Below, piece by piece: positions 30,366 to 60,343 of a DNA stretch of 64,000 bases (position 1 is the first letter of the stretch; each line of letters opens with the position of its first letter). This DNA is from Effrenium voratum (Eukaryota > Sar > Dinophyceae > Suessiales > Symbiodiniaceae), in NCBI GenBank assembly GCA_963377175.1, contig CAUJNA010000510.1, positions 62,001-126,000 of the forward strand. The letters run 5' to 3'. Position numbers and translations under genes: made by a program. The notes under the pieces were generated by a model. It did not search any database. It had not been told where the DNA came from and saw only the letters and a program-made list of their open reading frames with translations.

Positions 30366-30559
30366 CCTCAGTGAGGGGCGAGAAGCAGGAAGATCACATA
30401 CTCAACTTCGTATCTCCATCGTTTACCAAAATATCCACAGCGGCGAGGAGAACGCGAAACTGCCCGAAGCCGCTCAGAAGACGGGAACGAAAGATCACCA
30501 CGATGAGCATGACGGGTGTCGCCATAGAAGACCGGAGGAAGTTGCAAAGCAGTCGAGCG

Positions 30560-32960: not shown

Positions 32961-33498
32961 TTGCGAAGCTGTGTGGTAAAACGCTGATGCAGCATGTCAA
33001 CATCGCCAAAATATTGATCCTTCATGGACGCGGACATGATGTCAATGTCGATGTCTGCATTGATACGTGAGAACCATCCACCATTACTACATGTTCATGT
33101 GCACGATGTAGGAGGTGGTCATCAATGTCTGAACAGCGACACGGAAAAGATATGTCAGGAGTCCACCTGCGTTGCCATGCGCGGTAGTTGTAGATCCTGT
33201 CCCCCAAGGTAACTCAAAACTGCGACACCTCAATCTTGAGAGAATCGAATCCGACAAGATGCAAGTCAACGCAAGTTCAAGCCAAGCACAGATCAACACG
33301 CGGTCATGCAGCCACCAGCAGCAATTGTGAGACTTAGCTATGATCTGACGGCTGTCTTCCGTTTAGTGAAACCTCGTTCCTGGTTAAATCAGAAATTCCG
33401 CTGTTCTATGATAAGCACGTTGAGGTCAAATTTTCCGACAGAGTCGGTCCGGGGTCACACAATGGGTACACCCGAGGATTCCCCACGAATGGGGTGTA

Positions 33499-33815
33499 CA
33501 CACTTAAACTCCAGATGGAGGGTGCTAATCTTTCGAGTACAGCTGATGAGTCTCGAGTACAACTGATGAGTCTCGAGTACAACTGACAAGTCTCAAGTCG
33601 GATAAGGTTCTTCAACATGAAGCACACACAGCGGCAAAAGAAGCGGCCAACTGGACTTTCATCAACATCACTTCACAAAAGCAGGTACACACGGGTGATC
33701 AATCCGTGCATCCACCATCAAGCATAGCTTTGTAGGCCAGCGTTTGCTTGATGGCCGCTGGCCCCCTGCTACTAATTGTGGTGACAGGGTCTTCTGCCAC
33801 TCCGCACACACACGC
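33499..33815. repeat. Right direct repeat flanking the 660-bp tandem block
   Basis: It is the second copy of the segment at 30,000-30,365 in the same orientation, without the 48-base insertion, and ends in a (CACA)n stretch. One base difference in the GAGTACAACTGATGAG units (C to G at about 33,541) and others show the copies have begun to diverge. Confidence 0.8.
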
Positions 33816-35580
33816 ACACACACACACGGACGCACACCCGTATGAGGGAAACAGGTTGAGATCCCAAAGAAGGTTTGCTGCACGGTGTGCTTTTCTGTCT
33901 GAGGAGACCGTGAAAAAGATTAAAGCCGGAGCGTCCCAGCCTCGGAATGGCACGGCTTACCTGGCTGGCACGCTTCAGTGATTCAGAGCTTCGAGGTTTG
34001 CCACGCAGCGTCCTGGCTGGCTCAAGGTATCAGAAGCAGGCGCGGAGGTCAGTGACTTGCGGTACTTGCGCCTAGGTTGTCAGTTTTTCTCTGAAACAAG
34101 TGCACGCATGGCCACCTGGAACATCTCGAGCCCAATAGTTCTGGTGGCCACAGGCCGTGACCTGGTGACGAAGCTTCTTGTCTTATCGGAGCAGACGCGC
34201 CTGACCTGTGCGCAGGCCGGGCTTTGGGTCAAATCTCACTTTCTCGCGACCCGTTTTTCAATTGCCCAACGCGACATGCCTTTGTGTTCTTTTTCTTGCG
34301 ATGAGACAGAACCAGTTTGAAAGTCTGGAGCCGTTGGTGACTTGGCAGGCTCTGAGACATGGCTGGGTCTTGTCGGCGCAAAGGCGCGCGATCCATTTGC
34401 GTGAGCCGCTGGGAGAAACTGAGCGGCTTTGGGACAGGAGCTCACTACGAGAAAGCGAGCCAGCGTCACTGGTGAGCCCTCAGCCCTGCAAGCCCCGCGA
34501 GCGCTTGACAACTGGTAGCGGCGAGGCTGTCGCTGCCGTGCCGCTGCTGCGGCGGATGCTCCAGCTGCAAAAGCCGCAGAGGCAGGGCGAAGCGCGTAGA
34601 GTCAGAGGTGCAGATGCTGATGCTGGCCAAGCGGTAGTGAGATGACGGGTTTTGGACGATTTGCATCTTGCTGTTTGCAATGGTTTGCGAAAGTTACTTT
34701 GGGAAGTGGTTTTGTGTTGGCGTTTGCTTCGCAGGTATGCCCTCCTCATGTGCGCTTTAAGCGCGACGGAGGACAGACCTGAGGGTTGTGCCATGTTCAT
34801 GTCCAAATGTTGACAGACCAAGGCAGACCTTCCTCAACCAGCAGCTTGGAGGACGCTTTTTCTGATGCTCGATGAGGACGGGCTCCGCATTAGCCGCACT
34901 TGCAAGAGATCAAGGGGAGCTTGTGCTTTTCGGCGGGCCTGGCGGCCTGGAGGGTTGTCTATCGGAAAGCCTCGAGTGCAATCAGACCTTGTGACAATTC
35001 TTTCGAATTCTTGTTTCGAGCGGTGGGACACAGTCTGACATGTTGTATTGCAGACTGGTTGCGTGCTAAAATTGGGATGGGCCCTCCTCAAAATGGTGGT
35101 CCTGCCTTTGTTATCCTTCTAAAGAACCGCCCACACACACACACGCACAGACCACTGGGCACAGGACAACGATGGGCTTCTGAGCAGGGCCGCCGCGTTT
35201 TTGTTGGAGGCCGATCCAAGCTGCACCCCCGGCCAGCCAGGCATCGAGGAGTGCGCCGCCGGTGCCGCGCTTTGCCAGTTTGAACAAATCAATTGTGGTT
35301 TGAATATGTTTCAAGGGGTTGGCCCAACCCTGCCCTGCAGTTTGTCACTGACGTGGCCATGGGTCAGAAGCCCGTACCCCCAGTGAACATCCCAATCCCC
35401 ACTAAAATAGACTAAAATGGGCGGTGCACCTACCCGGTACCTAAATGGTGCCATTGGTTCTGACCCACAGCCACGTGTGAAACGTGGGCTTTCTGATAAG
35501 GCTTGAGGAGGCTCTCAAACATCTCACGCTCCGAGGCCGGCTTTAGATTGCTTGGGCAGTGAATTGCGAGCGAGCATCCA
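33816..35580. other. Host DNA, possible kinase 3' exons
   Basis: No full exon chain is visible. The segment around 35,195-35,225 reads LLEADPS, which resembles the end of kinase subdomain XI, and lies between the kinase exons and the EF-hand exons. The remainder shows nothing I can name. Confidence 0.3.
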
Positions 35581-35775
35581 CAGGTGCCTGATGAAGACTT
35601 GACAGAGGCGGTGAAGGCATCAACCGGCTCAGGTAAAAAGCCAGGTGCTAGTCGTAGCTTAAGAAGATGCAATGTGGACGGCTGTGGATTCCCAGGACGG
35701 ATGTGTCGTGCTAGCACTTGCCAGGCAGCCGACATCGACCAGAGTGGGTTTGTAGATTGGGCCCGCTGCCCGGTC
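35581..35775 (+). CDS. EF-hand-like exons, possible kinase C-terminus
   Basis: Two short coding pieces. The first (about 35,582-35,631, VPDEDLTEAVKASTGS) sits exactly between a CCACAG acceptor and a GTAAAA donor. The second (about 35,728-35,770) reads ADIDQSGFVDWA, which fits the D-x-D-x-S-G loop of an EF-hand calcium-binding site, with Asp at the usual glutamate side. Together with the kinase exons 6 kb upstream this fits the kinase-then-EF-hands order of calcium-dependent protein kinases. The link across 6 kb is inference, and only one EF-hand loop can be seen clearly. Confidence 0.45.
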
Positions 35776-38700
35776 TATTCAGTGCCGCAGTGCCGCAGTG
35801 CCACAGTGCCACGGTGAGGCCGAGTGGCTCTCGGTTGCGCTTCTCTCTCTTCCGAAGCTTTCAGAGGACGGGTTCCATTTTCTGCATCCGCTCCGCTAGC
35901 AAATCTGAAGCGCAAAGCCCTAGCGGATTCGGTGACTCGCCAATTTCTCGCCGTTCTGTGCCAGGCCGCGATTGCGACTTTTGCCCACCGGCATCTCCAG
36001 AGGCTAGGAAACGGGTTCCAGCTTGCACCAGAGAACAGTCATGTGCATGTGGGGCTCCACCAGGGACAGATATTTGTTGCGGCCGTGTCCGCCTGTATTC
36101 CAGGCTGTGGTCTGACACTGGCCAAAATGAGGCGAGTTGCCCGCGATTTTGAGCGAACAAGTGAGAGTGTCTCCAAAAGCCATCCCATCCCGGAAATTTC
36201 CGTGGCCTTGAGACCCGGCTGAACTGCAGGTCGTGGTCGCCATCTGGAAGCTTGCTCGGCAGTTGAGGCTCGAAAAGGACAAGGCCCGAGAGCTGCCGAG
36301 CGCACTTCCAGCGGTTGCAACACCGACTCCAAATCACAATTGGCTGCTTGAAGGGTGCAAAAGAAGAGGGTCTAGGGACACCCGTGAATCGTCCAGTTGC
36401 TCGCTTTGGGGTCCCCGATGACGTAGGAGGCGAGCCTCGGGCCGCTGTCTGCGAGTGATTTGCAGCTGGTATTGTCGAGCTGCCAGGCAGGGGTTCAGCA
36501 ACATTCAGCAAAGGATGGATGTGCTTCCGTTTCAAGAGAAGCCAAATCGGAAATACTTCTTGTCACGTGTAAGTCCTCGGATTCCAACTGCGAGCAACAG
36601 CTGAGAGAAGATTTGAGAAGGGGCCGAAAAACCTGTTCCACACAGTGACCATGATCACGGTTGACCGTGCTGGTCGGCGGTTGGACGGCCAGACGTGCGC
36701 ACCCTAAGCCGTGCTGCCGTGCTTCTGCCGCGCTGACTGACGGCTAGCTGTGCTGACCTAACCTCGCTGACCGACGGCTAGCCGTGCTGACCGACAGCCA
36801 GCCATACCAACCCTGACCGTGCTGACCGACTGCCCGTGACGGCCTGTTCGCACGGTTCGAATTTCAACGCTGAGCTGCCAGCCTCCGCATCTCCCGCCAG
36901 GACAGCGCGGGATGAATGTATCACTTGAGAGCTCTTCAGCTCAAACCAGTTGTTTTCCTCCGGTTCGCACTTTTGGCTTGGTCCAAAGTTGGCCAATAGC
37001 CAGCCCGGCCGAGCCGGGTTTGGGGCAACCGGGTCGCCAAAGGCCCCAAACAGCCCCCAAGGGCCGAGGGAACGCCAGGCCGCGAAACCTAGAGCCACGA
37101 AATCGGGCTGGAAGCAGTGGGCGTCTTGAGGTCAAGGGGCTGTTCTTGGCTTTCTTGGAGCATCGGCATAAATGTCCTTCCCGTGACCCGCAGCGTTTGA
37201 CGTTTCAGAATGCTGCTTTTCTCATTTGCAAGCTTATGAGCAAGGGATCTCGAGCACAACAGCACGTCTTTGAAGGCGTCAAGCTGCAAGCAGGTCCCAA
37301 AGCCTTACGACACGAGTTGTCCCCGCATCGGATGCGATTGCTTCATGTGGCTGTGGGTCAAAAACGGGCACCCAAAATGGAACCCTAGCAGATGGAACCA
37401 AGGACTAAAACCTGTGGTCCCCTGGTGATTTAATTTTGACCCATACCTATGTCTGTCGAAGCTTTGGAAGACGAGCTGTGCGAGATTCTTGCAGACAAGC
37501 AGGCCGGCTAAACTGATGTGGCAGTGATGCTTTTGAGGGGTATGTAACGAAGCCGCGGCGGACATTCGTTACAGACATGATCGTATTCCCCATGTAACAA
37601 GACCTGCTGGCTCTACGGAACAAGCACTGTTCAAAAGGGACATGCCTGTGTCTCTGGACGTATCGGGTTTTCCCAAATGTTCAACCCGATGGTGGGTTTC
37701 CTTTGGAGGGGTATTTGCTTTTTTCGCTTTTGGCTTCCTGGCTTTTCGGCTTCTTGGCTTTCGGCTTCTTGGCTTCTTGGTTTTTTGGCTTCTTGTTGGT
37801 TTACGCGGCTTTTGGTGGCTTTTTGGCTTTGGCTTTTTCGCATCCTCTGCATTCCCAGTTGGCGTTTGCAGCTTTTCGCTGGTTTATGCGGCATTTCCGG
37901 TTCATTGGTTTTTGGCTTTGGCTTCCCGCATCCTCAGCATCTCCAGTCCCTCCCGATTTGAATCATCACTTCTTCGCAACTTGTTGGATTGCTTGCAAAG
38001 GTTTGATTGCACCCCTTTCTTCAAACATCATGGGTGGGGGCTGCCGCCTCCCCCCCCACCCCCGCCACTCCCGGTACTTTTTAGATTTCTTGCAGAGATT
38101 TAGTTGCACCCCTATTTGGTTATCACTTTTTGGAGCATCAAATTTCGCGAGAAAATGCTGTAAAAATACGACATTTTATGTCATCTATGTAATCTGTGTA
38201 ATCTATGTAATCTAAGTAATCTAAGTAATCTATGTAATCTATGTATGTTTGTATGTATGCACTTCTTCGGAATCATACGGGAAGCCACCCCTGCCAACCC
38301 TCCCGCTGCTTTTTATATTCTATCGCACCCTTTCTTGAATCATTGCACCCCTACTTGAATCATCATTTCTTCGAACATCATAGGGGGGGCTGCCGCCGCC
38401 CCCCAACCCCGCGGCTGCTTTTTAGACTTTTTGCAGCGAAAAACATGCACCCCTATTAAAATCAACTTCTGCGAACATCATGGGGCAGGTTTGCTTTGCA
38501 GCGAGTGAAATGCCTTCCTATTTGAATCATCATTTTTTCGACCCCGTCAACCCGCAAGCTACTTTTTAGATTTTGTTGCCCACGATTTGTTGGTGATGCT
38601 AGGGATCTTGGTCGGACATGTGGGGGATGTTGAAAACGATGCGTTGACGAGCTAGTGTGCAATACGTCAATTTTGCGATAAAATGCGGTAAAACACGACA

Positions 38701-38985
38701 TGTTACTGGCCCGGACGGAAAAGGACAAACTAGAGGGACGATTGGCCCGAAAGCATTTTTCCCCAGGTGCTCATCCAGCCGCGGAGACACCTTTTTACAT
38801 CGCTGCGGCGAGCGTGTCTGCACGCGGCGATGCTCAATGTGTATGGTCACATGAGAGCTCCATCTCATCGTCCTACGAGAGGAAACATGGCAGTGCTCGA
38901 TCCCACATATTTACATCCGTTAAAACAAGAAGAGTAAAGCTCGTAAAGCTCGAAACGAATGACAAGCAAAAGGAAAAGCAATCAA
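35776..38985. other. Host DNA with low-complexity tracts, no gene resolved
   Basis: Contains a GCTGACC-type repeat at 36,655-36,835, a Phe/Leu-rich TTTTGGCTT-type repeat at about 37,710-37,930, an ATGTAATCT-type repeat at about 38,180-38,255 and several diverged copies of a phrase around TTGAATCATCA (about 37,967, 38,337, 38,354, 38,523). A possible exon at about 37,450-37,514 (SVEALEDELCEILADKQAG) is unidentified. Confidence 0.4.
36655..36835. repeat. GCTGACCGACGGCTAGCC minisatellite
   Basis: Imperfect units based on GCTGACCGACGGCTAGCCGT with variable length. No coding character. Confidence 0.75.
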
Positions 38986-38989
38986 TAGC

Positions 38990-39485
38990 AAAGCTTGCAC
39001 GACGGCCACAGTTTCTGCAAAGCACGCTCGCGCAACTTAGCTCGGCTCTGCGCAGCTTGGCTGTGAAAGCTGGGTCTACGCAAGCTACTTTTCGCGAGTG
39101 GCTCGGCGCAACTGGCTCTGTGCAAGTTGGCTCTGCACGAGTCTGCTCGGCGCAATGCGCTTTGCGCGAACTGCGCCGCGCGATTTCTCACGAAAGTGGT
39201 CTGCGCAAGCTGCATTGTTCCAAGCTGCTGCGCGCAAGTTGCTCTCTGCGAGCTGCTGCACACAAGTGCTCTGTGCAAGTTGCTCTGCGCAAGTGCTCTG
39301 AGCAAGTTGCTCTGCGCAAGTGCTCTGCGCCAGTTGCTCCGTGCAAGCGCTTTGCGCATGTGCTCTGTGTAAGTTGGTCTGTGCAAGTTGCTCTGCGCAA
39401 GTGCTTTGCGCAAGTGCTCTGTGCAAGTTGCTCTGCGCAAGTTGCTCTGCGCAAGTGACTCTGCGCAAGTTGCTCTGCACAAGTG
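38990..39485. repeat. CTCTGCGCAAGTTG minisatellite
   Basis: Many copies of a roughly 15-bp unit (CTCTGCGCAAGTTG and variants such as CTCTGTGCAAG) that degenerate towards the left. It is open on both strands, giving Cys/Ala- or Gln/Arg-rich peptides that are not genes. A relative of this unit reappears at 41.4-41.9 kb. Confidence 0.85.
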
Positions 39486-39499
39486 CTGCCGGAGCTGTG

Positions 39500-39735
39500 G
39501 GAATGTACTTCGCGTACTATTGTTGTACTTAAAAGTTGCGATTTTCCAGCCGGAGCTGCGGGAGTGTGCTCCGCGTACTACGTTTGTGCTTAAAAGTTGC
39601 GATTTTCCAGCCGGAGCTGCGGGAGCACGCTCCGCATACTACGTCTGTACTTAAAAGTTGCGATTTTCCAGCCGGAGCTGCACGCTCCGCATACTACGTC
39701 TGTACTTAAAAGTTGCGATTTTCCAGCCGGAGGCT
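39500..39735. repeat. About 60-bp repeat, four copies
   Basis: Units contain TACTTAAAAGTTGCGATTTT, CCAGCCGGAGCTG and CTCCGC.TACTACGT. Starts of the conserved part lie near 39,527, 39,588, 39,649 and 39,701. A fifth, isolated copy is at about 40,607-40,655 after the G-run, so the unit flanks a 0.9-kb interval. Confidence 0.85.
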
Positions 39736-40545
39736 GTGACTGGAGGCGGGCGGGGCTCGGCTCACCCTCACCTCCCGACTCCTGCACCACACCCAACAAC
39801 CAACACTCACTCACACAGCCAACTAATACAAAGAGCTCTACAGAGCTGCAGAAAGGCATCCTACTAGCTGAGTAAAGCCACCACCAAGTACCTCATTAGG
39901 GTAGAACAATAGCAAACTTTTGATAGAGCAAATGCACATGAAGTTTTCTAGTTCAGCAAGAAGAAATTGTTATTGATGATCGCCAATTGATTACTACGGA
40001 CTACCTCCACCAAACAGGCAATGGTCAGCAGCCTATATAATATTATCCGTCACCCACTAAAGCCAGCAATAAGAGAGAGTGCTTGTGGGGGGCCAGTCCC
40101 ATGGAGTTACCAGAAATTGTGTATTCATTGATGTTTCATGTTTTTGGGTGGCCATCTTGAAAACTGCCGCCCAAAAACATGAAATTTTTTATATATAATG
40201 AGTGAGCGCAGGTCAATTTCCCAAATGTTGGTGTCTAAAGCCATATATTGGGGGTGCCCCCGTCCCCACGGATGTTGAGGTGGATGTTCTCAGAGCAGAA
40301 GCTGTGGGCAAGACCTCTAAAGCTGACTTCATTAATTGGACGCCTCCGGAGCGGAGAGCCAGGAAGCTTCTTTGACCCTCTCAAGAAGAAGAAACTCAAG
40401 ACATGAACTATATAGGACGCTCTTGCTCCAAGGTGAGTTTTGCACCACATGCAAATAAAGAATGATTGTACATGTACAGTTGTTTCTTAGTATTGGTAGA
40501 TCACCTCCCAATCTCACCTCTCACCTTCAACCTGCCCTGAAAAGG
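39736..40545. other. Host DNA between two copies of the 60-bp repeat
   Basis: I see no gene. The interval includes a phrase TTTTTGGGTGGCC near 40,140 and the inverse-related GCCCAAAAACATG near 40,168, which form a small imperfect inverted repeat. Confidence 0.35.
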
Positions 40546-40547
40546 TC

Positions 40548-40606
40548 AGGCCCGTAGCCAGAGGGGGGTCGGGGGGTGGGGGGGGGGGGGGGGGGGGGGG
40601 GGCCGT
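40548..40606. other. hAT-like end motif and G-run
   Basis: The sequence CAGGCCCGTAGCCAGAGGGG at about 40,548 resembles the terminal motif of some hAT-type DNA transposons and is followed by a run of about 30 bases that is almost all G. No matching inverted end was found nearby, so this is only a possible transposon relic. Confidence 0.3.
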
Positions 40607-40778
40607 CCTACGTTTGTACTTAAAAGCTGCGATTTTCAAGTCGGAGCTGCCGCGGACCAGGGGGGAATCGAACCCGCGACCGCAGGATTGCGAAAGCAGG
40701 CGCGCAAACCACGACAACTTCCAAAGGCCACTTCGCGAGCAGCGAGCAACAAAATCGCACGGCGCCACAGCGAGAGCG

Positions 40779-41260
40779 CTTCGACACGCACGATCCCCGC
40801 AGAGGGTCGCGCGGGCGCCGCTAAAAACGCAAAAACAAACACGAGTTTTTGCACCTCGACACGCCGATCCCCGCAGAGGGTCGCGCGGGCACCGCACCAA
40901 AAAAAATAAAAGTCGAGATTTTGCACCTCAACCACGCCGATCCCCGCAGAGGGTCGCGCGGGCACTTCAAAAAGCGCAAAAAACCACGAGTTTTTGCACC
41001 TCGACCACGCCGATCCCCGCAGAGGGTCGCGCGGGCACCGCAAAAAACACAAAAACCGGAGTTTTTGCACCTCGACCACGCCGATCCCCGCAGAGGGTCG
41101 CGCGGGCACCGCAAAAAACGCAAAACACCTCGAGTTTTTGCACCTCGACCACGCCGATCTGCGCAGAGGGTCGCGCAGGCGTATCAAAAAACGTATTTTT
41201 TTAAAGAAAGAAAAGTCAAACATTTTGCACCTCGACCACGCCGATTCGCATTCCCGATCG
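40779..41260. repeat. About 70-bp minisatellite, seven copies
   Basis: Units contain the invariant core GATCCCCGCAGAGGGTCGCG followed by an A-rich spacer and TTTTTGCACCTCGACCACGCC. Spacing is 70-73 bp. The rightmost copies diverge (GATCTGCGC, then GATTCGCA). Open frames on both strands are by-products of the repeat. Confidence 0.9.
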
Positions 41261-41394
41261 TCGGCAACATCCCCACCCGCCGCCCAGAAAGAGATTCTTA
41301 ATACCGAGCTCTTTCTCTTTCTTTCCCGCGCGTTAAGTAATTAACCTAACTTACTTAACCTAGCTTACACAGCTGCTAACGCCGCGCCTCTACA

Positions 41395-41935
41395 CCTAGC
41401 TTAGCTTAGCTCTATGCACCTAGCTCTATGCACCTAGCTCTATTCGCTCTTTGCACTTGGCTCTGTGCACTTAGCTCTGTGCACTTGGCTCCTTGCACCT
41501 CGCTCTTTGCACTTCGCTCTGAGCGCTTGGCTCTATGCGCTTGGCTCTTTGCACTTGGCTCTGCGCAAGTAACTGTACGCGCTGGTGACTGTGTGCAAGT
41601 ATCTCCATGCTGGTGACTCTGTGCAAGTATCTCCATGCTGGTATCTCCATGCTGGTGACTCTGTGCAAGTATCTCCATGCTGGTAACTCTGTGCAAGCTA
41701 CTCTGTGCTAGTAACTCTGCGCGAGTGTCTCCATGCTGGTATCTCCATGCTGGTGACTCTGTGCAAGCTACTCTGCGCAAGTTGACCAAGAGCTCCTGGT
41801 ATTATCTCCATGCTGGTGACTCTGTGCAAGCTACTCTGCGCAAGTTGACCAAGAGCTCCTGGTATTATCTCCATGCTGGCGACTCTGTGCAAGCTACTCT
41901 GCGCAAGTTGACCAAGAGCTCCGCACGGAAGAACC
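41395..41935. repeat. Compound CTCTGTGCAAG / CTCCATGCTGG minisatellite
   Basis: Left part: 12-bp units CTCTATGCACCTAG and variants. Right part: CTCCATGCTGGTGACTCTGTG units, which end in three copies of a longer 63-bp unit containing GACCAAGAGCTCCTGGTATT. The GTGCAAG phrase links it to the minisatellite at 39.0-39.5 kb. Confidence 0.85.
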
Positions 41936-42323
41936 CTTCGCAATGCTTTCGGGAAAGAAACAAAAACGGAAAAACATCCAACATATATCCGCGCCCTTTT
42001 CCTTTGTTTACAACCCCAAGAAGTGCACCTGGAATATCCTCTTACAAACACAGACTGGTACCTGGAACCTTCACAAATGGGTCGTTTCCGTATAGCTTCC
42101 GCAGATGTGCTTGTCGCCTTGGCCGCCAAAAGAACGCCACATTCAATGGACAAGGTTTATTTTGCACCACTTAGTAGGTTATCCACGTCAACTAGCGTTT
42201 GGCGTGGCTTTGTTCATCCACAGGTATTGAGGATGGTGCGGCATGTTGCAATTGAAAGACTTGGGCCTGTGACCCACAAAAGTCGCGCACAGATTTTCTA
42301 ATTTCATCTTTCCAAGTTTCGGT

Positions 42324-43145
42324 GACCCGGAAGGAGGATCTTACCGCGAGGTCTTTGAGGTCTTTGACTCGCCTCGGCTGCCGCAGGCCTTCCAGCTGAG
42401 GCTCCGGCAGCTCCGCTCGGAGCTGCGCCTGGTGGAGGCCAGCGTGGAGGCGCGATGCCGGACAGCCAACTGGAGAACCAGCGGCTATCTTCAAAGGAAA
42501 ACCGTTTTTTTGTTGTTTTTCCTTGTTTGTTTGTTTTTTGTTCTTTTTCTATCTTTTTTTTTCTTTTTCTGGGGACTGTTTTTGAGACGTCAGGCGGTTT
42601 CCAAAAGGGGAGGCGCGTATTTTGTTGTTCCTTGGGTTGTTGTTTGGCCAAGAAGCGCCGTGGCTGCTGGCAAAAAAGAAAACCATACTGGACACAAGTT
42701 GCATCGTATTGTTTACAATTCTGTCTGTGTGTGTGAGAGTGTGTGTGTTTGTGTGTTTTTCATCCGCAAATTTGGAGACTCCACACCAGGGGTGGATTCT
42801 GAGCATTGGTTGCTTTTCTGAAACGGTGCATCTTCCGGCTAGGCGCTACAACAGAAGGAGAACTGGCTGTCTGGCGAGCTGGTCGGCGGCTTTTGGGCGG
42901 CTGGGCTCTGGCTGAGTAATTTCAAGGAGACTTTGCTGTCAGACTTGCAGTTGAGTCAGTCGCCAATTGACTTTTGCTGCTGCTCGGCAATGCATTCGAT
43001 GTGCGGACGCTGCGATGAGGCAAGGCGCTCAGCACGCAAGAGCAACTTGCCCTCTGTGGACGACTTTCTGGAAGGCAGCTGTTTTCTGTGCATTCGTAGC
43101 TCCGTTTTCGGGGTTTTGCCGATCTCACCGTGCCTCAAACCTTGA
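42324..43145 (+). CDS. Candidate exons of a helical protein
   Basis: One piece at 42,324-42,470 reads through without a stop in a Leu/Arg/Glu-rich frame (REVFEVFDSPRLPQAF, then RLRQLRSELRLVEASVEARC). A second at about 42,842-42,960 contains LQQKENWLSGELVGG. They are separated by T-rich DNA typical of an intron. The family is unknown, and coding status rests only on composition and open frame. Confidence 0.3.
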
Positions 43146-44200
43146 TATGTTGAGTGAGACTCAGCTTGCGCAGTGGACAGTGCGAAGGACGTGCAGGCTC
43201 CGAGGGCCCCAGGATGTTCGAATTGGAGGACGGCGAGGCACCGGTTTGGCCCTGGATGAGAAGCCATGTCCAGAGTTGGTTGGCAAAGCAAATCTAACAA
43301 CCGTCCAGTTCTCGCACGGCTCACCAAACCAACAAAGATGTTGATGTGCCAGAAGCTTGGCACAGGCCGACCTGTCGTGCCAAGAACACGACGACTGGGA
43401 GACCATGCTGGACACCCTTGGCGTCGCGAGGCCTAGGGTTTCAGAAAGAATAGGCCTCGGCTCAAGCCATGTCCATTCTCAAGAATTTTAATTCAGCGCC
43501 TGTCAAAGATGGCCACGCACATGGCCGCCTTTGATTGTTGCACCCATCAGAGTTTGCAATACCAATGGAGTTAGGATGCTTGTGGTAGGCCGAGTCTGCT
43601 GATTTTTTCTTTTTTGATCGGCTAGTGGAGCGCATGAAGTGTGGCGGTAAATATCAACGAAAAGAGGCATGGACCGAAACGTAGGTGCGGCTACTGCGGC
43701 CTGCGGCTGCCCCTGGACGCCTTTCCGCCACGGTTCTCCGCTGCCAGTTTCTTGCCGGGAGGCCCTGATTTCCCAATGCCCACGCAGCCTGAAATGGCCG
43801 CAAAAAATGCCAGATGGCCGTCATCGAGCAGCACTCGAAGGAGTGTGCAGTGACCAGCCCCACCAACAAAGCGGCGTGTGCCGTCCCACGTTTGGCAAAG
43901 CGCATTCAGACGGTGAACAGATGGCACAGCCAGCGAGACGGTTGCAGGTGCTTCTCCAAGAGACCGCGCTGACTTCATGATGGGGCGGTGTAGTTCTTGT
44001 CCTTGCCTTAGACCCACTTGACACTGGCCACAGCACAAGTCCTGAGGTGGCGATGCTGTGCCGCTCGCCGTGGATTCCATGGAGTCGGGATCCCAATGTG
44101 CGGAATGCCATGCAGCGGTTGGACGCGGTTGGGAGCTGGAGCAGCAACGAGGATCGTGTTTACACATAGGACATATTCATTGCTAAGGCAACATATTTGC
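43146..44200. other. Last host-like segment, nothing recognised
   Basis: GC-rich DNA like the rest of the left part. A short open piece at about 43,678-43,735 has a CGYCG motif but is otherwise unidentified. Composition changes abruptly at the end of this segment. Confidence 0.4.
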
Positions 44201-44229
44201 AACACAGAACAAACATATAAATTGATAAC

Positions 44230-45300
44230 AATCCAGATTTAATATGATCGATACATATATATATATATATAAATGTATATATATATATAATAAATTGATA
44301 ATAGAAGTTGAATTAATTCTTGGTTATTATTGAATTAGTTTTTTGAAAAAATGGGTTAATAAGTATTGTTTGTGATTATATATGCTATTTCTGTATTTTT
44401 GGTGGGAAGGAGAAAACATATTTAAAATTGAATATATACATACATATATATATATATATTTGTTTGGTGTTTTTTTTTACATTTTTTTTAATTTAGGATG
44501 TGTTATTTAAACAAATATATATATTGAATATTGTATGTTATGTATATATAGTGAATATAAATAGATATATGGTAGTGATTTTTGTTTGAGGGATTTGTAA
44601 TAGAATTATGATGGATATATGTTATAGATTGTATTATATATTTTTGTAATATTAATTGGTTTATTATATAGTATTTTGTTATATATATATATGTTGTTAT
44701 TGATTTTTTATTTTGTATTGTTATTATATATTTTAGATGATGATTTTTTGTTTTTGTCGTAGTTTGGTTTGTGTTGAATAGTATTAAGTTGATTTATGGA
44801 GATATTTTGTATATTGAATTTTGTTTTGTTTTATTATAGATTGTGTTATAGGTTTAATTTTAGTTTGGGTTAGCGATTTTGTTTTTTGTTGTAATTTGGT
44901 TTGTGTTGAATAGAATTATGGAGATATGTTTTGTATGTTATGGATGCGTGTTTTATGTGTTATGGGTTGTGTTATATTATTATAAGTAATGTTATATAAT
45001 TATTATATATTATAGATTTAATTTTAATTCGGATTGATAAAATATTTTGTTTTTTGTTATATTTTTTTAATATTTTATTTATTAGGTGTTTTTTGTTATA
45101 TATTTGTATAATAGGGACTTCCGTTATAGATATGTGTAATAAGGGGTTATAGATTCTTAAAAAAAATATGGTTTATATAAATATAAAAAATAGTATAATT
45201 TAAATTTGTGGTACGGATTTGTAGAAATTGGTTTTTAGAATTATGTTGAATTAATTATAATATTTAAAAAAAATAGGAAATTGATAATTTTGTAATTTAT
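44230..45300. other. AT-rich, C-depleted left arm without genes
   Basis: There is no open frame of note on either strand. The + strand is almost free of C: I count only two C in the 300 bases 44,581-44,880, against many G. Several TA runs occur (44,255-44,289, 44,440-44,460, 44,515-44,522). A motif-like inverted copy of the early-promoter sequence lies just to the right (45,312-45,334), pointing into this arm, which may once have held a gene. Confidence 0.6.
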
Positions 45301-45311
45301 ATATTCTTCAA

Positions 45312-45334
45312 GGGCCTCTTTAAGAGGGGTTGCC
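45312..45334 (-). promoter_or_regulatory. Partial copy of the element's early-promoter-like motif
   Basis: On the minus strand this reads GGCAACCCCT followed directly by CTTAAAGA, the two halves of the motif found before the polymerase gene (60,738-60,766) but with the spacer between them removed. It points towards the gene-free left arm and may be a relic of a lost gene's promoter. The CCTCTTTAAGAGG part is also a short palindrome. Confidence 0.4.
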
Positions 45335-45360
45335 TTAGATTTGAGGAATTATGATCGAAT

Positions 45361-45480
45361 CTAATATTAAGCTTTATTAAATTTTATTAAGTTTTATTAA
45401 ACCTTATTAAGGTTTATTAAGGTTTAATAAAGCTTAATAATGTTTAATAACGTTTAATAACGCTTAATAACACTTAATAA
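45361..45480. repeat. 12 x 10-bp repeat that switches orientation midway
   Basis: Twelve consecutive 10-bp units without gaps. Units 1-6 (45,361-45,420) end in ATTAA (mostly NNTTTATTAA); units 7-12 (45,421-45,480) end in AATAA (mostly NNTTTAATAA). The core TTTATTAA is the reverse complement of TTAATAAA, so the array is a quasi-palindrome around 45,420. The first two bases of each unit vary while the rest is nearly fixed. The 10-bp spacing is close to one helical turn, as in arrays of protein-binding sites at replication origins or element ends. Confidence 0.85.
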
Positions 45481-45499
45481 TTTGTTATTTAGATGAAAA

Positions 45500-45790
45500 T
45501 GCTCAAAACGGATATGTTCTCTCTTATTTTCAACAATCCTGCAAATCCGTTATTTCGAAAGACATCTAGCCTAGAACATATGCCCCAGGATTGTAGTCAA
45601 AATACTATACTTCGAAAAGGGACCAAAATATTGTTTCTTTTTGAGAAGTAAAAGGGATGGTTGCCTGTTCTGTTTTTTATTTCAATTTAACACGTGTACC
45701 ACCTTATCCGTTTTTAAAAGGCTGATTTTGGGGGCATGAAATAACGATATGGATGTGGTAACGAATTGATGATTTGGTCCCCTGTCTCGT
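45500..45790. other. Interlocked inverted repeats, no ORF
   Basis: Several exact inverted pairs interleave: AACGGAT 45,507-45,513 with ATCCGTT 45,545-45,551; ATATGTTCT 45,512-45,520 with AGAACATAT 45,573-45,581; CAATCCTG 45,534-45,541 with CAGGATTG 45,586-45,593; and GGGACCAAA 45,619-45,627 with TTTGGTCCC 45,773-45,781. TATCCGTT recurs at about 45,704. The order gives a pseudoknot-like arrangement. The stretch is less AT-rich than its surroundings and has no coding frame, so it may be an origin, an end structure or a structured RNA. Confidence 0.6.
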
Positions 45791-45969
45791 TCCAGATTTC
45801 AATTTTTAGTTTTATTGATTGAAAGAGGATAGGATTTTTTATGGTTTCATGGGTTGGCTTTTGGGAGGTTGTTGTGGTTTGTTATTTAATGAAATATTTA
45901 TAGATTAAAAATTCACTATAATTATAATATATAAGAATATAAATGATATAATTATGGTTTAATTATGAA

Positions 45970-46595
45970 CTATATAGGTTCATCAACAATTAGTTTAAAC
46001 CTTATAATTTGTATTCCTTCAAAATTCATTCTATTTCTTTCATCATCAATACAACTGTATATTTTTTGATGCGCCGCTCTCATTACATCGGCTATATTAT
46101 CTATGGTTATATTATCTACAACATCATCACTATGAAAATGAAAACTAAAAGTGTTAAAATGATTATCTTCATAATAATTGAAATGATAAAACCTTACAAA
46201 CATATATTTTCTTCAACTATTATCACTGCTTCATAACCGTTATCGGTTTCAATGTCATCTAACAAACAATCTAAGTTTTCATTTTCATTAAAAACTATAT
46301 CTTCGATGTTTTTAATGCTTAAAGGTATATTTCTTGAAATGTAATACTCAATTACGTATCTCTTTATATCATCGCCATCTTCAACAGTATAGCGCTTTGT
46401 CTTTCTTTTTGTTTCTGTTCTGCGTATTTTATATCGTTGTTGTATTCTCTTTAATATCTTAATATGATTATGTTTTATTTTCAAACATTCAGGCCCCCCT
46501 AATTTATATGAAATGATACCTTTTAATACATCAGCAGGTAAGCTAGCACAATTCTCAAACATAAAACTATTCTCTGACATTTTACCCTTACTCAT
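45970..46595 (-). pseudogene. Unidentified accessory gene, F-box-like start, frameshifted
   Basis: Two open frames, 46,595-46,194 (133 codons) and 46,203-45,970 (77 codons), overlap by 10 bases and together look like one protein of about 210 residues. The first ends shortly after AVIIVEEN, and the second continues with a compatible beta-rich, acidic sequence. Residues 17-50 contain SLPADVLKGIISYKLGG followed by LKIKHN, a pattern that recalls an F-box-like LPxDV...IxxY motif. A similar phrase occurs in the broken gene at 51,026. The gene has the ACTACTTAAAGA motif 27 nt before its ATG. Two overlapping genes instead of one frameshifted gene remain possible. Function unknown. Confidence 0.55.
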
Positions 46596-46622
46596 TTTTC
46601 TCTTAATATATAAGGCTTTTTC

Positions 46623-46650
46623 TCTTTAAGTAGTTTTGGCTAGGGGTCGC
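46623..46650 (-). promoter_or_regulatory. Early-promoter-like motif before 46,595 gene
   Basis: Reads on the minus strand as GCGACCCCTAGCC then AAAACTACTTAAAGA. It matches the polymerase upstream motif at 60,738-60,766 over nearly its full length. Its edge is 27 nt from the ATG at 46,595. Confidence 0.65.
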
Positions 46651-47424: not shown

Positions 47425-47453
47425 TTTTTCTCTTATTATATTATATCCATTTT

Positions 47454-47468
47454 TCTTTAAGTAGTTTT
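47454..47468 (-). promoter_or_regulatory. Early-promoter-like motif before 47,424 gene
   Basis: Minus strand reads AAAACTACTTAAAGA, identical to the core of the motif before the polymerase gene. It is followed by a TATAATATAATAAGAG stretch that resembles TATATTAAGAG before the 46,595 gene. Confidence 0.65.
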
Positions 47469-47525: not shown

Positions 47526-48421
47526 ATGGCGAGATTAACAAAAGACCAAATAATCAGTAACATCTATTATGATTTAGACGATGGTTTCGGAAGCACACAA
47601 GCAACACACAAGAAGGCAAAGGAAGAAAATCCAACAATAACATTAGACGATGTAAAGTCTTTCTTAAAGAAACAACTAAATAAACAAATCAAAAATTATA
47701 GAGGCACTAATTCCTATACCGCTCCATGCATATGTCACCTTTAGCTAAAGACAAGAATGTTCCACAGTATGCTTTAGTCGTCGTTGATATCTTCAGTAAA
47801 TTAGCAGATGTAATTCCGATGGAGGAAAGAGACGGAGAGCACGTTTTGAAGGCGCTTAGAGCAAGTTTTAAAAAGATGGGTTACCCGATGTCTGTGTATT
47901 CTGATGATGATGGAGCGTTTGTAACCAAAAACCAAGTTCAGGATTTCTTCAACAGCGAAGGTATCAAACACATAATAACGAAGACACACGCAAATGTAGC
48001 CGAACGCTTTATTCGGACAATGAAAAACAAAATTCATGATAGAGCTAGGCTTAATAATATGAAATGGATCGATGCCTTAACACCAGCATTGAAACAGTAC
48101 AACAGCACATTACACTCGTTAACAAGGATGACACCAACCGAAGCACACAAGGACAACAATGAAATAAATGCAAAGGTCAATCTGAAACTACGAGAAAAGA
48201 ACAAAAGAAAGTATCCCAGAATATAAGAGAACGATAAGATAAAAGTGTTTTAAAAGAAAAGGGGCAATTACACCGACATAAAAGAGTATAACTCTAAATG
48301 GTCTAATAAAATATTCAATGTTGATAAAATTGAATATGATATTATGGGTAATAAAACTTACAGAGCAGCAGGAATAAACAAACCACTTCTGAGACACGAA
48401 ATTTTGTTAGTTAATGATTAA
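47526..48421 (+). pseudogene. Polinton-type integrase (rve), broken
   Basis: Retroviral-type DDE integrase that would insert the element into host DNA. The N-terminal helical part is open at 47,526-47,744. At about 47,725 the frame changes just after YRGTNSYTAP, and the short segment that normally follows, with the first catalytic Asp, is missing. The core resumes in another frame (47,726-48,226) with the second acidic residue in VYSDDDGAF and the glutamate in NVAERFIRTMK. In the same frame TAA codons stand at 48,224 and 48,251, after which the C-terminal chromo/SH3-like region (NYTDIKEYNSKWS to KPLLRHEILL) reads on to 48,421. A deletion plus frameshift and two stops make it inactive. It ends tail-to-tail with the gene at 48,418. 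Confidence 0.85.
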
Positions 48422-49880: not shown

Positions 49881-50636
49881 ATGACAAACGTTCCAATAAT
49901 AAAACCAATAAACATAACTGATTATGAATTCAAACAATCCAAATATGAACATGTACTAAAACTACCTTTTCGCTCAATTGTTGTTGCTTCATCAACGGGT
50001 GGCAAAACAGTTTTAATCCAAAACCTTATCCTACATGTTTATAGGGACTGCTTCGTTCGTATATTCATTTTTAGCCCGTCTATTCATAATGACCCTACCT
50101 TCGTTGAAGTCAAGAAATATCAAAAAGATAATATGAAGGTTGATGATGAAAAAGAAAAGTTATATTATGACACCTACCAACCTGAAGAACTGGAAGAAAT
50201 AATTAACACGCAAAAAAAGATAATTCATTATATGAAAGAACAGAAGATGAAGAAACTACATTCAATTTTAATCATAGTTGATGATTTTGCAGACGACCCT
50301 AAATTTGTTAGATACAGCAAGTTATTACATGGACTGGCAACGAGAGGCAGGCACGACGCTATTAGTTTTTGTTTAAGCGTTCAAAAATACCGTGTCCTAG
50401 CACCAATCGTTAAGTTGAATTCAAGTTCGTTGTACATATTCAAGTTAAAGAATGTATCAGAGTTAATGTTATTCATTGAGGAAAACTCTGCCATTGTTGA
50501 TAAAGAGCAACTGTTAAATATATATCATAAAGCAGTAGATAACAAGCCCTACTCCTTCTTTTATGTCAATATGAATTCCAAAGATGTTAATAATATGTTT
50601 TATGTTAGATTTGAGAAAGCTTTTAAAATAAAATAA
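49881..50636 (+). CDS. FtsK/HerA-type genome packaging ATPase
   Basis: Intact 251-codon gene. Residues around 38-48 read ASSTGGKTVL, a Walker A (A-x4-GKT) motif, and residues around 130-140 read SILIIVDDFADD, a hydrophobic strand ending in acidic Walker B residues. The length and motif spacing fit the A32-like packaging ATPases of Polintons, virophages and related viruses, which drive DNA into the procapsid. It is the best-preserved core gene of this element. The ATG follows a TATATATTTTTAATATC run with no early motif. The small gene at 50,656 follows after 19 bases. Confidence 0.9.
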   Translation: MTNVPIIKPINITDYEFKQSKYEHVLKLPFRSIVVASSTGGKTVLIQNLILHVYRDCFVRIFIFSPSIHNDPTFVEVKKYQKDNMKVDDEKEKLYYDTYQPEELEEIINTQKKIIHYMKEQKMKKLHSILIIVDDFADDPKFVRYSKLLHGLATRGRHDAISFCLSVQKYRVLAPIVKLNSSSLYIFKLKNVSELMLFIEENSAIVDKEQLLNIYHKAVDNKPYSFFYVNMNSKDVNNMFYVRFEKAFKIK

Positions 50637-51790: not shown

Positions 51791-54402
51791 TTATTTAGAT
51801 TTTTCTTTTTCCAATTCCTTAATTTCTTTTTCAAGTTTATCTATCTTATCGCTCAACTCTAATATTGCCTTATGAAGTAACACGGGTAAGACTAAATAAA
51901 TCAATCCTAAATACTCTTTATCTTTGCATACAATATTTCAAACTCTTTAGGAATTGCTTTTAATACTTCATCTGCGATATATCCTATATGAGTTTTACCG
52001 CCATCATTTCTATCGTGTCTTTTAAACTTCTTCGGTTTAAACTTCTTAACAACATTCATACAATTAGATTTGATATTGTCTATGTCATATTTCAATCGTG
52101 AGTCACTTGAATTAACAAATGTTCCATTAATCGTCAGGGTTGTCGCTGTTAAATCTATATTAGTTCCTGTTGATGGTTCTAGTGTACACATAGCAATTTC
52201 TTCGTTCCTAAAACTGTTATATTTTCATTAAAAGTCGATGGAGCATTATTTGTAAAACTTTCAGTGTTTACTGTTGTTCCGAAAGTTTTATTAATAAACA
52301 GTAGCACCGACGGCGTACTCGAGCTATCAGCAATTCTAAATACTGTATTTGATGTTCTGAATATTACATCAATTGTAGATAAACTAATTCTATCGTAATA
52401 AGTTGATATTTCACTCGTACCAAGCTTTAAGTCTGTTCCAGTAGTCATTGAAATATTATCCAAAAATGAAATCGTTGTTAGATCAAATGATTGAATTGTA
52501 TTAGTTGCCAAATAAGAATTTTGAATTGCTAGATTAGTATCAACAGTTACTAATGTTCCTCCATTAGGCGGTATATGATTACTTCTTAATGCTCCACCTG
52601 TTTTAACATAACCATCATCAGCAAATAAATTACCCATAAAATCAGCAGTAGCAGTATTAAAAGTCCATCCGCTAGAAATATTAACAGCTCCAACGATGTT
52701 AGATTGAACAGCAGGGTCTCCACAAATGAACCTAATTGAAGAATTAGCATCACTATTCCTCATATCAAAAGATGAAAAAGCACTAACATATCTATATAAT
52801 TCACAATTTGTATCAATTGTTAATTTACCATCGGTATCAATATTAAGATTATCACAATTAACATCAGCATTCGTATATATATTGCCGAGAATATCTATAG
52901 GCTTATTAAAAATTGTTTTTCCTACAAGCGAATCTGCCATGAAGTATTGGTTAGAAGCATTAGTTATATCTCCTACACAACACGCTACAAAATTAGGATG
53001 ATGTATATAAAAACCTTCTATTGCATCCGGCGTATATGTTTCTAAATATGGTTCTAATCCATTTATTGAAGTATTGATATTATTTATTTTTGTTTTAATA
53101 TCTGTTGAAAAATCATTATTTGTAAATAAATTTCCTTTCATATAAACAGTACCTTCGAAATATAATGTTCCGTGTGCTTGAGCAAAATTGTATAAAGTAT
53201 GAACATTACCGTTAATCGTAATTCTTGAAACATTATTAGGTCTCCCGATGATGACGTCGCCTGTGTTCCATCCTAACAATAATCTATAAGGAGTAGCGCC
53301 TTCTAACCCTTGATAAGAGTCTAACTGACATCTTCGTTTAAACTCGAGTCTTTGGTTACTAACTGCGTCCTGGATTCTAAATATTGGATTAGTATTATCT
53401 GTTAAACTAAGTATTAATAGCGAATTCACTGTCTGTAATGATGTATTAACTTTGTTTAATTTTTGTCCTAATGATGCATCCTGTGAATTATTACTAGTAA
53501 CTATTGAATTAATTGTATTTGTATTTCCCGTTATTAATCTACTTAGTCCATCTGATTGTAAAACATATCTAGCGTTAGAACCTGCTGCATCTAAAATAGA
53601 CGAATACGAAAATAAACCTGATACGTGTAAATTATTTAATATTGTTGTATTATGATTTAATAATATCTTATTATTTTGAAAAGTTGAAGAATTATTAATT
53701 TCTATATCTCCAAAACCTCTTTGATTTAGAAACATAGTTGCTCCACTTAAATTTCCATAAACATAACTATCAAAATAATTATTATACATTTCATAAAAAT
53801 TAAATAATTTCCAAAATTTGCTATTTTAAAAGTCGATGTTGTTGTTATATTATTTATTAATGTATTATTTAATATTGATACAAAAATTTTTCTGATAATA
53901 AATTACTTGTTATTATTTTATTATAATAATCTGATTCATTAAATGAAGCTCCATTATTCTGTAAATCTGATATAGCTGAAATATGTGAATTTATTGTACT
54001 ATTTAATCCTGTTATTAAATTTGTATTGGAACTAATATTATTAAAATTACTTGTCATAGTAGAATTTAAATTGTTTATTAAATGTGTATTAGAACTGTTG
54101 CTATTAAAATTTGTATTTGAAGTTATTGCCAGATTACCTATTAAAAATGTATTTGAATTAATATTATTTGATAATACATTAACTTCTGTCTTATTGTATG
54201 ATTGAGTTATATCATAAAAATTAGCATTTATCTGCTCCTTTGTGTAAGTATCTACTTAGTCTACTTTGTTGTTGAGTAAATCAATTATATCTGATTGATT
54301 AGCGTATATGTTTCTAATGTTTGTTACCCCGCTTGTAGAATTGATTTCGCTAATTGTGTGAACTACAACATTTTCAAAGTTTGTTAAGTTTATTGAAGGC
54401 AT
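51791..54402 (-). pseudogene. Fibre/adhesin with C-terminal peptidase S74 chaperone domain, broken
   Basis: Reads from ATG 54,402 (MPSINLTNFENVVVHT) to the stop at 51,791, about 870 codons. The N-terminal part has Asn/Ser-rich short repeats (for example SNTNLI and SNTHLI), the middle (53,789-52,179, 536 codons open) is Thr/Asn/Gly-rich as in beta-structured fibres, and the end is an intramolecular chaperone domain (SSDSRLKYDIDNI, HIGYIADEVLKAIP) closing in a coiled coil (LSDKIDKLEKEIKELEK). S74 domains fold trimeric tail spikes and are cut off afterwards. Defects seen: TAA at 54,258-54,256 and frame changes near 53,870, 53,800, 52,185 and 51,925. It probably encoded the host-attachment fibre. 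The domain is better known from phages and giant viruses than from Polintons. Confidence 0.75.
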
Positions 54403-54462: not shown

Positions 54463-54950
54463 TTAATCTAAAATCTGTACTCCGGCATCTCTAATGGATA
54501 ATATTTGTTCTGATACTAATGTTATGTAAATCGTGTCAGGTATATTTGTTGTTGCCATATTTCCAATAGGTTCACACGAATTAGAAGCTGTTGTCCGGCT
54601 TTAGTGTTAATTCCAGAATATGAAGAATCCGGCACCTTTTCGAAATTCATAGCAAAAATAAACTTATCAACACGATAAGCAGAATATTCAATTAATAAAT
54701 GGTGTTGATGGAACAATGGTAAATTTAATGCTTTTCGTAAATAATAGAATGCTTGTGTTAATGAACGACAAGGATACTCAGGATATAATTTTGAACCTAA
54801 TTGAAGTTGAAATTCTAAATCAAGGTTGGGATTGTAGTATCCACTGTCTTGATAATTCAAATTATATATAGGATGATAGAAATTGTTGTATTCTTTCATA
54901 ATAATCATATCATCCGTTGTTTCATTGTCATATTTCTTATAATGTATCAT
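54463..54950 (-). pseudogene. Major capsid protein, C-terminal part only
   Basis: Open from 54,950 to 54,522 (142 codons), with a frame change near 54,575-54,580, after which the other frame reads to the stop at 54,463 with YITLVSEQILSIRDAGVQIL. LGSKLYPEYPCRSLTQAFYYL, YRVDKFIFAMNFEKVPD and GINTKAG are typical of the second jelly roll and end of double-jelly-roll capsid proteins of Polintons and polinton-like viruses. Those proteins usually have 450-650 residues; here only about 160 remain and the 5' two-thirds are absent. The next gene begins 2 bases upstream, so the missing part was removed by deletion. The MIHYKK start is probably accidental. Confidence 0.75.
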
Positions 54951-55322: not shown

Positions 55323-55983
55323 CTACATTATCGCACTTACAAGTTCAACACTTCTTGAAACATCACGCCCCGTATCACCGTATCCAGTTATGTAATCGTG
55401 GTTAGTAAATGGATTTAATGAGCCAGTATAAACAGTTATAGCACCACGGTCAGCAATGCCAACAGGGTCTAAGATACTTCTAAAATTAATGTAATCATCG
55501 GTAATTTTAGACCTACGTGATATAAACGGCGTACCGTAAGTGGTTAAAATTAATTCTCTTTCAGGATAATCTTTTGTTATTGGTGCCTCTACACTTGAAC
55601 CGAGACTATGTGTTATAAGGTGCTTAACTTCATTGTTTTCATCCATTGCTTTTGATGTGTCTTTATATCGTTGTGAATATTTTGTCATGTTAAAAGGTAG
55701 TCCAACATCTGCCAGAATGTTATTAACAGCTCCTCCAAACGTTCCTTTTCCAAATGTTCCTGCTACATACATTTTATCACCATCAATAAAAAAAACCTTT
55801 ACCATTGCCATATGCTCTACTTAATCCTTGTGCATTAGTTAAATTTGAATTAGGATAATAACTATTTAATATTTTGTCAATTTGTTTCATAATGTTAGTT
55901 ATTTTAATTGATTTCTTGTAAGGTTGATAATGTTTAATTTTACCATGCTTCATTTCATAAATTAACTTTTTATTATTAATCAT
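55323..55983 (-). pseudogene. Lipase-like alpha/beta hydrolase, frameshifted
   Basis: The first frame runs from ATG 55,983 to about 55,790 and ends NAQGLSRAYGNGK; the second (open 55,811-55,323) continues FFIDGDKMYVAGTFGKGTFGG. The shift sits in an A-run at about 55,790-55,798. The joined gene is about 220 codons. THSLGSSVEA is a nucleophile-elbow motif (G/S-x-S-x-G-like), and ILDPVG and NHDYITGYGD supply candidate Asp and His of a triad, as in lipase class 3 folds. A lipase or esterase in a viral element could help membrane passage or release. The assignment rests on motifs only. Confidence 0.6.
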
Positions 55984-56022: not shown

Positions 56023-56873
56023 ATGCTCACATACAAGAAGGTCTATATTGACAGCGCTCATAGAATTAGTGGTACATCATCAAATTTCAAAGTTGAATTG
56101 CCAGAAACATTACAAACAGACAACGGAGTTCATTGCTACATTCACGAAGTAACATTGCCTAACTCTTGGTATTCAATTCAGTCAGGATTAAATAATATAT
56201 TATCTTTTTATTTTTCTCCATTAGCTCCAGATGAAGATAACACAAATGTCCATTATTTAGCGTTACAATTGGACGAAGGAGTATATACTGGCACAGAACT
56301 AGCGACAGAATTAAAGGCAAAAATAAATGGTGTTGTAGATAATACTAATTTCTCAAATACTTATGATTTTTTAGTGTAAAAACTAATAAAATAACAATTT
56401 ATTCAAACTATGCCGATAGAAAGTTCGTTGTATTAATTGATGAACAAATGAAACTAATATATGCAGATTATATATGGAATAGAAGTTTTGATGTTAATAA
56501 TTTACATTCTGTTAATGAAGTTTTAGGAAATTATTAAGTTGTAGTTTATCAATATAATAATCCTTATGTTTCTGGGTTTATTAATCTTCAACTTATTAGA
56601 AATATTTATTTTCATTCTTCTCAATTGTTTAATTATAATTAAGTAAATTTAAGAACCGGCGATAGCACAGTTGTTAAGAAAGTACCAGTCACAGCACCAC
56701 ACGCGGGAATTATCTTTGACTCAGAATTAAACCCTCTTGATTACTTGGATGTATCAAATAGAAGCTTTAAACAATTAGATTTTTGGATTAGTAATTCATT
56801 AGGAGATGAAATTAATTTGAATGGAGTGAATTGTAGTTTTAGTTTCCTTTTCGTAAAGAGTGATATTATTTGA
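56023..56873 (+). pseudogene. Penton (minor capsid) protein, broken
   Basis: Open 56,023-56,379. The start, VYIDSAHRISGTSSNFKVEL then GVHCYIHEVTLPNSWYSI, is characteristic of the Polinton minor capsid/penton protein that fills the fivefold vertices. A frame change near 56,375-56,382 moves to a second frame (TNKITIYSNYADRKFVVL), which then carries TAA at 56,535 and TAA at 56,640 but otherwise stays coding (VVKKVPVTAPHAGIIFD, LDYLDVSNRSFKQLDFW) to TGA at 56,871. Total about 283 codons, the normal size. It is divergent from the hydrolase gene, with 39 bases between the starts. Confidence 0.8.
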
Positions 56874-60320: not shown

Positions 60321-60343
60321 GAAAACGTGATAATATAGTAAAA

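Follow-up and report, generated by a model that had tools for sequence, protein, structure and literature searches.

Viruses of a Polinton-type family integrated in the genome of the dinoflagellate Effrenium voratum nearly always lie, with base precision, at runs of G or C. Specifically, at least five of the six bases just outside the virus tip are identical G or C in 38 of 40 distinct flanks, and most likely the integrase itself would select these tracts. One member of the family is found in the stretch of 64,000 nucleotides analysed here (hereafter the window; C510:62,001-126,000), close to an abrupt change of base composition. The explanation that we favour, with a probability of roughly three in four, brings together the edge of an AT-rich island at a site on which host genes converge, an old virus of 21 kb lying 1.5 kb to the right of this edge, and a family integrase that would cut within G/C runs. 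The new part is the G/C-tract target rule, whereas the virus itself is of a known kind, since such viruses are already known in large numbers in dinoflagellates (available part of PMC10120064). No report of Polintons choosing G/C tracts was found in the literature searched, which omits most subscription journals. All positions below are window coordinates, continued to the right beyond 64,000 (position 2902 of L009 corresponds to 66,902), unless a contig or another piece of sequence is named.

Compositional break and host surroundings

The GC content of the window breaks at a well-defined point. By maximum likelihood over 43,000-45,300, the best change point falls at 44,159 (2-log-likelihood interval 44,153-44,212), with a GC fraction of 0.567 to its left and 0.192 to its right and a log-likelihood gain of 178; in 100-bp windows, the content passes from 64% at 44,050-44,149 to 13% at 44,250-44,349. 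The tandem repeats and the pattern of open reading frames (ORFs) also switch at about 44,159. The abrupt junction is genuine and far above chance, and the original prediction of a sudden change of composition, repeats and genes near 44,200 was correct, GC dropping there from 57% to 19%. The same prediction had placed the join between virus and host at this point, and in this respect it fails, as a non-viral island lies between the two.

In particular, the DNA to the right of the junction consists of an AT-rich island (44,159-45,364), with 1-6% C on the plus strand and the GC junction as its left edge, followed by TTAATAA-type inverted repeats (45,365-45,500) and by a stretch in which the outer tip of the left virus arm (about 40 bases) and its tract would be expected (45,501-45,655). 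The first 1.2-1.5 kb after the junction is not viral. When the genome was searched with the island and the best 40 of 220 candidates were scored, its matches elsewhere were partial, the best one reaching 75% over query positions 524-762, and no second full-length match was found; the other matches of 44,180-45,364 in this set were mostly short and of low complexity. It could be argued that 44,159-45,655 is instead a degenerate outer part of a virus that starts at the junction, given that the stretch is AT-rich and touches the virus. This is very improbable, however, as the match of each of the 39 other scored copies starts at 45,656, with a tip of about 40 bases there, the genome matches of 44,180-45,364 are of the partial, low-complexity kind just described, and comparable islands occur past the right end, separate from the virus. 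A virus edge at 44,200 is ruled out by this common start together with the island search.

The islands beyond the right end are three, at about 67.6-68.6, 69.8-70.7 and 71.8-72.7 kb, and show the opposite skew, with 3-6% G on the plus strand. Across 87 kb of host DNA of the contig, stretches of at least 300 bases below 30% GC are five, the first two of which adjoin to leave four islands, all of them at the virus site. No window below 30% GC occurs in seven control stretches (25.5 kb free of N), and milder GC dips are present elsewhere on the contig, for example at 1,750-2,750 of L032. On both sides, T is abundant and C scarce on the would-be coding strand; as a matter of speculation, this might stem from transcription-linked mutation or provide a supply of T for 5-hydroxymethyluracil.

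An abrupt change, next to a left virus arm that lacks its tip, is also what could be expected if an assembler had fused unrelated host and virus DNA near 44,200. Such a chimeric contig is nevertheless extremely unlikely: to the right of the virus the contig continues with GC-rich host DNA, the non-viral island sits between the break and the virus, intact relatives flanked by target words are found within many other contigs, and a second virus resides on the same contig.

GC-rich host DNA occupies 1-44,158, with two recognised host genes, both on the plus strand, namely an ORF with a beta-trefoil (ricin-B type) sugar-binding lectin domain (4,925-6,283; PF00652, E = 1.5e-23) and an ORF with a calcineurin-like phosphoesterase domain (10,646-11,131; PF00149, E = 1.9e-7). 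That is, Pfam matches above the cut-off were obtained for two of ten plus-strand ORFs versus none of ten minus-strand ORFs on this side, these 20 having been picked by length out of 97 listed, and two plus-strand frames of 29,001-44,000 gave no Pfam domain. On the right side, where six frames of 20 kb (L010 and L029) were scanned, the minus strand holds pieces of a cyclophilin and an FkbM methyltransferase, and the plus strand gave no Pfam match at E 0.1. Among 1-kb windows, a positive GC skew is seen in 31 of 44 to the left (9 of 16 in the last 16 kb before the site) and a negative one in 11 of 11 and in 9 of 10 to the right of the virus. These data suggest that host gene arrays converge on the virus site from both sides, although the recognised host genes are only two per side. 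The junction would then mark the left limit of an AT-rich island of host DNA, situated where two arrays of host genes face each other, and the convergent arrangement probably has to do with the island. In Symbiodinium microadriaticum, according to the available part of the study, GC likewise drops where gene arrays converge, with a clear reduction only at convergent boundaries; the mean reduction there is about 10%, whereas here discrete islands of less than 30% GC are found in which one strand is nearly free of C (left) or of G (right) (PMC8110479).

Some other features of the host DNA deserve mention. A 20-base unit, TCGAGTACAACTGATGAGTC, forms two arrays at 30,034-30,099 and 33,533-33,598; the sequence CTGATGAG resembles a hammerhead ribozyme core, Rfam giving no match for it. 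At 27,213-28,209, a CA/CACGCC array of 1 kb shows a pronounced skew between the strands. In the window as a whole, no RNA family reached the Rfam gathering score and no tRNA was detected.

Limits, genes and relatives of the virus

The virus measures 21.2 kb and extends from 45,656 to the end of the window and on to about 66,902, as delimited by its inverted ends, by the tip motif and tract at its right end and by the common start of its copies. The left terminal inverted repeat (45,656-45,955, plus strand) pairs with 66,861-66,560, with 281 of 302 positions identical; inverted ends, which the original prediction had proposed to look for, are thus present. The right arm extends about 40 bases more, its tip ...CCTTTTCTACATTTTTTT (plus strand) ending at 66,902, and an identical tip occurs at both ends of the element on contig C3520 (81,756-103,170), the closest relative by ATPase. 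These outer bases are missing from the left arm of the window virus. In a genome search with 45,640-45,960, in which the best 40 of 597 candidates were scored, all 39 other copies of the left arm start matching at 45,656, and the pieces fetched from those copies carry the tip of about 40 bases at that point. From this common start and from the tip found there, it follows that the virus spans the interval between 45,656 and about 66,902 and that its left tip was lost. In other words, the virus would have integrated long ago about 1.5 kb right of the junction and then decayed, losing some 40 outer bases of its left arm, and the left tract of this copy presumably disappeared together with the tip.

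Both the length, which falls inside the 15-40 kb range of Polintons/Mavericks, and the inverted ends of hundreds of bases are features of this group. The C3520 element has a length of 21.4 kb and six other two-ended copies measure 22.4-22.8 kb. The arms of one relative, the second virus on C510, are identical at 444 of 455 positions, and those of another differ by 5 mismatches over 779 aligned columns.

The gene content points to the same class. A broken integrase is encoded on the plus strand by a first piece (47,526-47,741), whose residues open the single frame of the C3520 copy, and by a core piece (47,726-48,223; PF00665, E = 5.7e-9), the C3520 integrase also matching PF00665 in one frame of 326 aa. 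An A32-type packaging ATPase follows on the same strand (49,881-50,633; PF04665, E = 5.9e-11). On the minus strand, an S74-type chaperone domain (51,910-52,191; PF13884, E = 3.3e-11; tail-fibre families of PHROGs) lies next to an upstream ORF (52,182-53,789) that, from its position, may encode a fibre-like protein, and for which no PHROGs family and only a sub-threshold Pfam match were found. A conserved fragment with 80 homologues (54,525-54,950, minus strand) is a capsid candidate on account of a putative resemblance to a capsid protein; it has no Pfam match, and the pLDDT of its structure model, 39, is too low for the fold to be read. A minor capsid protein and a maturation protease were sought in the ORFs at 55,326-55,811 and 56,023-56,376, neither of which has a Pfam family above the cut-off. 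Towards the right end of the window, a conserved plus-strand ORF (60,801-61,559), possibly the N-terminal piece of the polymerase, precedes a piece of 754 aa (61,625-63,886, plus strand) assigned to a family-B DNA polymerase via its homologues: PF03175 is present in 19 of the 120 listed, and the window ORF alone has no polymerase Pfam match and no PDB relative. Further inside the virus, a GIY-YIG domain (PF01541, at L009 311-580) scores exactly at the cut-off, and a piece of a C5 cytosine methylase (PF00145) is found at L009 1052-1555. No tyrosine recombinase domain was found among the part of the virus ORFs scanned with Pfam.

By its sequence, the virus is of the Polinton/Maverick type with a retroviral-type (rve) integrase. 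Signs of decay are the integrase split over two frames versus the single one of C3520, the polymerase frame of 754 aa versus 1,249 aa in the closest listed homologue, and arms that differ at 7% of positions. The view that a decaying Polinton-type virus resides in a large dinoflagellate genome, put forward in the original prediction, is hence upheld by the rve integrase and its broken state, the A32 ATPase and the polymerase homologues. A recurring motif resembling CTTTAAGTAGTTTT stands before virus genes at 46,595-46,650, 47,425-47,468, 60,296-60,341, 60,739-60,786 and about L009 1,985-2,030, and is possibly a promoter signal.

The genome that was searched comprises 1,155,904,702 bases (1.16 Gb) in 3,699 contigs. 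At least 150 related ATPases (150 scored of 5,083 candidates) and at least 150 related integrases (150 scored of 3,007 candidates, 148 of the 150 being free of stops where they match) are present in the assembly, the candidates taking in other virus lineages as well. A second Polinton-type virus is located on the same contig at C510:37,309-59,060 (L031, L030) and ends about 3 kb left of the window; it looks more intact, has a different tip sequence, and its ATPase and integrase are 44% and 48% identical to those of the window virus. The neighbourhood of the abundant ATPase relatives in L012-L020 grades into minisatellites of about 50% GC and other repeats, and their ends are unrecognisable. 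The element at C238:91,624-96,600 (ends in L038 and L037) measures 5.0 kb, has both arms of the family, is flanked on each side by a G tract and is apparently a shortened derivative. The flanks of the element at C3034:3,077,050-3,099,856 (C3034b; ends in L059 and L050) duplicate, in inverted form, those of the copies on C1563 and C281, which suggests a product of recombination between two copies. One ATPase homologue bears a name, Skav208340, which points to Symbiodinium/Fugacium kawagutii. In IMG/VR, no relative was confirmed by ATPase or by polymerase.

G/C tracts at the virus ends

The tracts were measured on the six bases just outside the run of A of the tip, an offset of one base being allowed. 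The 40 flanks are the outer ends of the 39 other scored copies, minus four identical to another flank in their last 40 bases (C1471-, C3034b-, C3422+ and C1563-), plus five further ends, that is, both of the C3520 element, both of the second virus on C510 and the right one of the window virus. The left end of the window virus stays outside the count because its tip is missing, and the ends in L012-L020 because they are unrecognisable; since scoring covered the 40 of 597 candidates with the highest similarity, distant members may differ. Six of six identical G or C are found in 24 of the 40 flanks. Among 110,270 host positions scored in this way, mostly from one contig, 2.1% have at least five of six and 0.26% have six of six. 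The binomial log10 P is about -61 for the 38 and about -51 for the 24 flanks, on the assumption that flanks are independent, kin being thinned only by identical flanks. Counted by hand per insertion, 32 of 33 are at tracts, and the two exceptional flanks are both ends of a single element, on C2380, which has the 5-bp word CCGGG on both sides.

The tracts are often long pure runs, of up to 22 G. The window virus shows its tract at the right end alone, where the tip is followed by AGGGGA and 17 G; in the C3520 element, a run of C directly adjoins the outside of each tip, both runs being read on one strand, and the second virus on C510 is bordered by C10 and C17, which likewise fall on one strand. 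Moreover, 36 of the 40 flanks (with C644, mostly N, among them) have at least 48% GC at 40-160 bp from the virus end, the other four having 38, 20, 41 and 44%. A target duplication, the other check proposed in the original prediction, is absent in the window copy, because its left tip is missing, and present in relatives, as a clear 5-bp CCGGG at C2380 and as tract words elsewhere.

Nine elements have two ends (those on C238, C3245, C1513, C1702, C1563, C2380 and C3520, C3034b, and the second virus on C510), and in eight of them the same base or word stands on both sides of one strand, the exception being C3034b, in which it is inverted. This direct repeat argues that the tract belongs to the target and not to the virus. 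Long pure runs, which can grow, could in principle have been made by the insertion itself, through added bases or later slippage, without any choice of target. We regard this as improbable, because bases added at inverted ends should be inverted as well, whereas the repeat is direct in those eight elements, because several tracts (C3566, C263, C1845, C856) are interrupted or run into G-rich or C-rich host repeats, and because C2380 has an ordinary duplication. The direct orientation, the run-on into host repeats and the CCGGG case together argue that the tract predates the virus.

The mechanism we propose is that members of the family integrate by their own retroviral-type integrase, which would cut within a run of G (or C) with a stagger of about 5 bp and join the two inverted ends to the cut. 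After repair, the virus would be flanked on either side by G/C bases that form a direct target duplication. We are slightly inclined to a more specific version, in which one lineage of rve integrases found in Polintons would recognise poly(dG)/poly(dC) itself, by its helix shape or in quadruplex or single-stranded form, and would have placed hundreds of viruses base-precisely at tracts, a habit that would be common to two lineages with 44%-identical ATPases.

Insertion might, on the other hand, be unspecific, the pattern arising from open chromatin or from the loss of harmful insertions elsewhere; that location can matter is indicated by Breviolum, where Maverick elements are reported to be enriched at domain edges, around about 11% of edges (available part of PMC11071213). 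We consider this doubtful, as the tract stands base-precisely at the tip in 38 of the 40 flanks and selection alone should spare many insertions in the large non-coding remainder of the genome. Choice of the tracts by the integrase is the reading we retain. Of two other conceivable targets, AT islands were rejected for the family, none of 590 windows of 100 bp (windows with N skipped) falling below 30% GC in ten 3-kb flanks of five other insertions. Convergent sites are not supported as a general target, GC skew being positive to the left as well as to the right of the second virus on C510 and the same five insertions showing no consistent reversal. With neither AT islands nor a clear reversal of skew at these five insertions, island and convergence are local features of the window site and not rules of the family.

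Comparison with known systems and implications

Dinoflagellate Polintons/Mavericks, as described in the available part of PMC10120064, which also reports a dinoflagellate capsid cluster, agree with the present family in several respects: they are of comparable length, encode an rve-type integrase, an A32 ATPase and a family-B polymerase, have inverted ends, and are elements of low GC that reach a high copy number in a GC-rich host. A polinton of S. kawagutii is given as about 21.2 kb in a figure legend of PMC12721341. In contrast to the present family, no mention of G/C tracts as a target is made in the available parts of these two sources, the comparison being one of descriptions alone. OmPLV of Oxyrrhis marina shares several traits with the window virus, being an endogenous dinoflagellate virus of low GC with inverted ends, an A32 ATPase, a GIY-YIG domain and signs of decay; it is described as having a tyrosine recombinase and a helicase-polymerase fusion, without rve integrase or target duplications, whereas an rve integrase and target words are found here (available part of PMC12721341).

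Among the polinton-like viruses of cryptophytes, members with an rve integrase resemble the present family in having short target duplications, typically of 6 bp; the available part of the source mentions no tract target, and one low-complexity word, GAGGG, was judged spurious by its authors (PMC12220804). The endogenous mavirus-like elements of Cafeteria resemble the present family in their inverted ends, in their short target duplications and in a GC content that is low against that of a GC-rich host, but their integration is reported, in the part of the source available, to be without sequence specificity, in contrast with the 38 of 40 flanks at G/C tracts (PMC8547959).

Viruses integrated in protist genomes are often detected through capsid genes and through dips in GC content. 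As in the window, such a dip can extend beyond the virus into host DNA, and it is the base-precise definition of virus ends that exposes a target rule. If the G/C-tract target is true, the choice of target by this class of integrases would be directly testable, and virus copies in dinoflagellate genomes could be delimited exactly and dated relative to one another. Furthermore, it may help to explain how many viruses of low GC are tolerated in GC-rich chromosomes.
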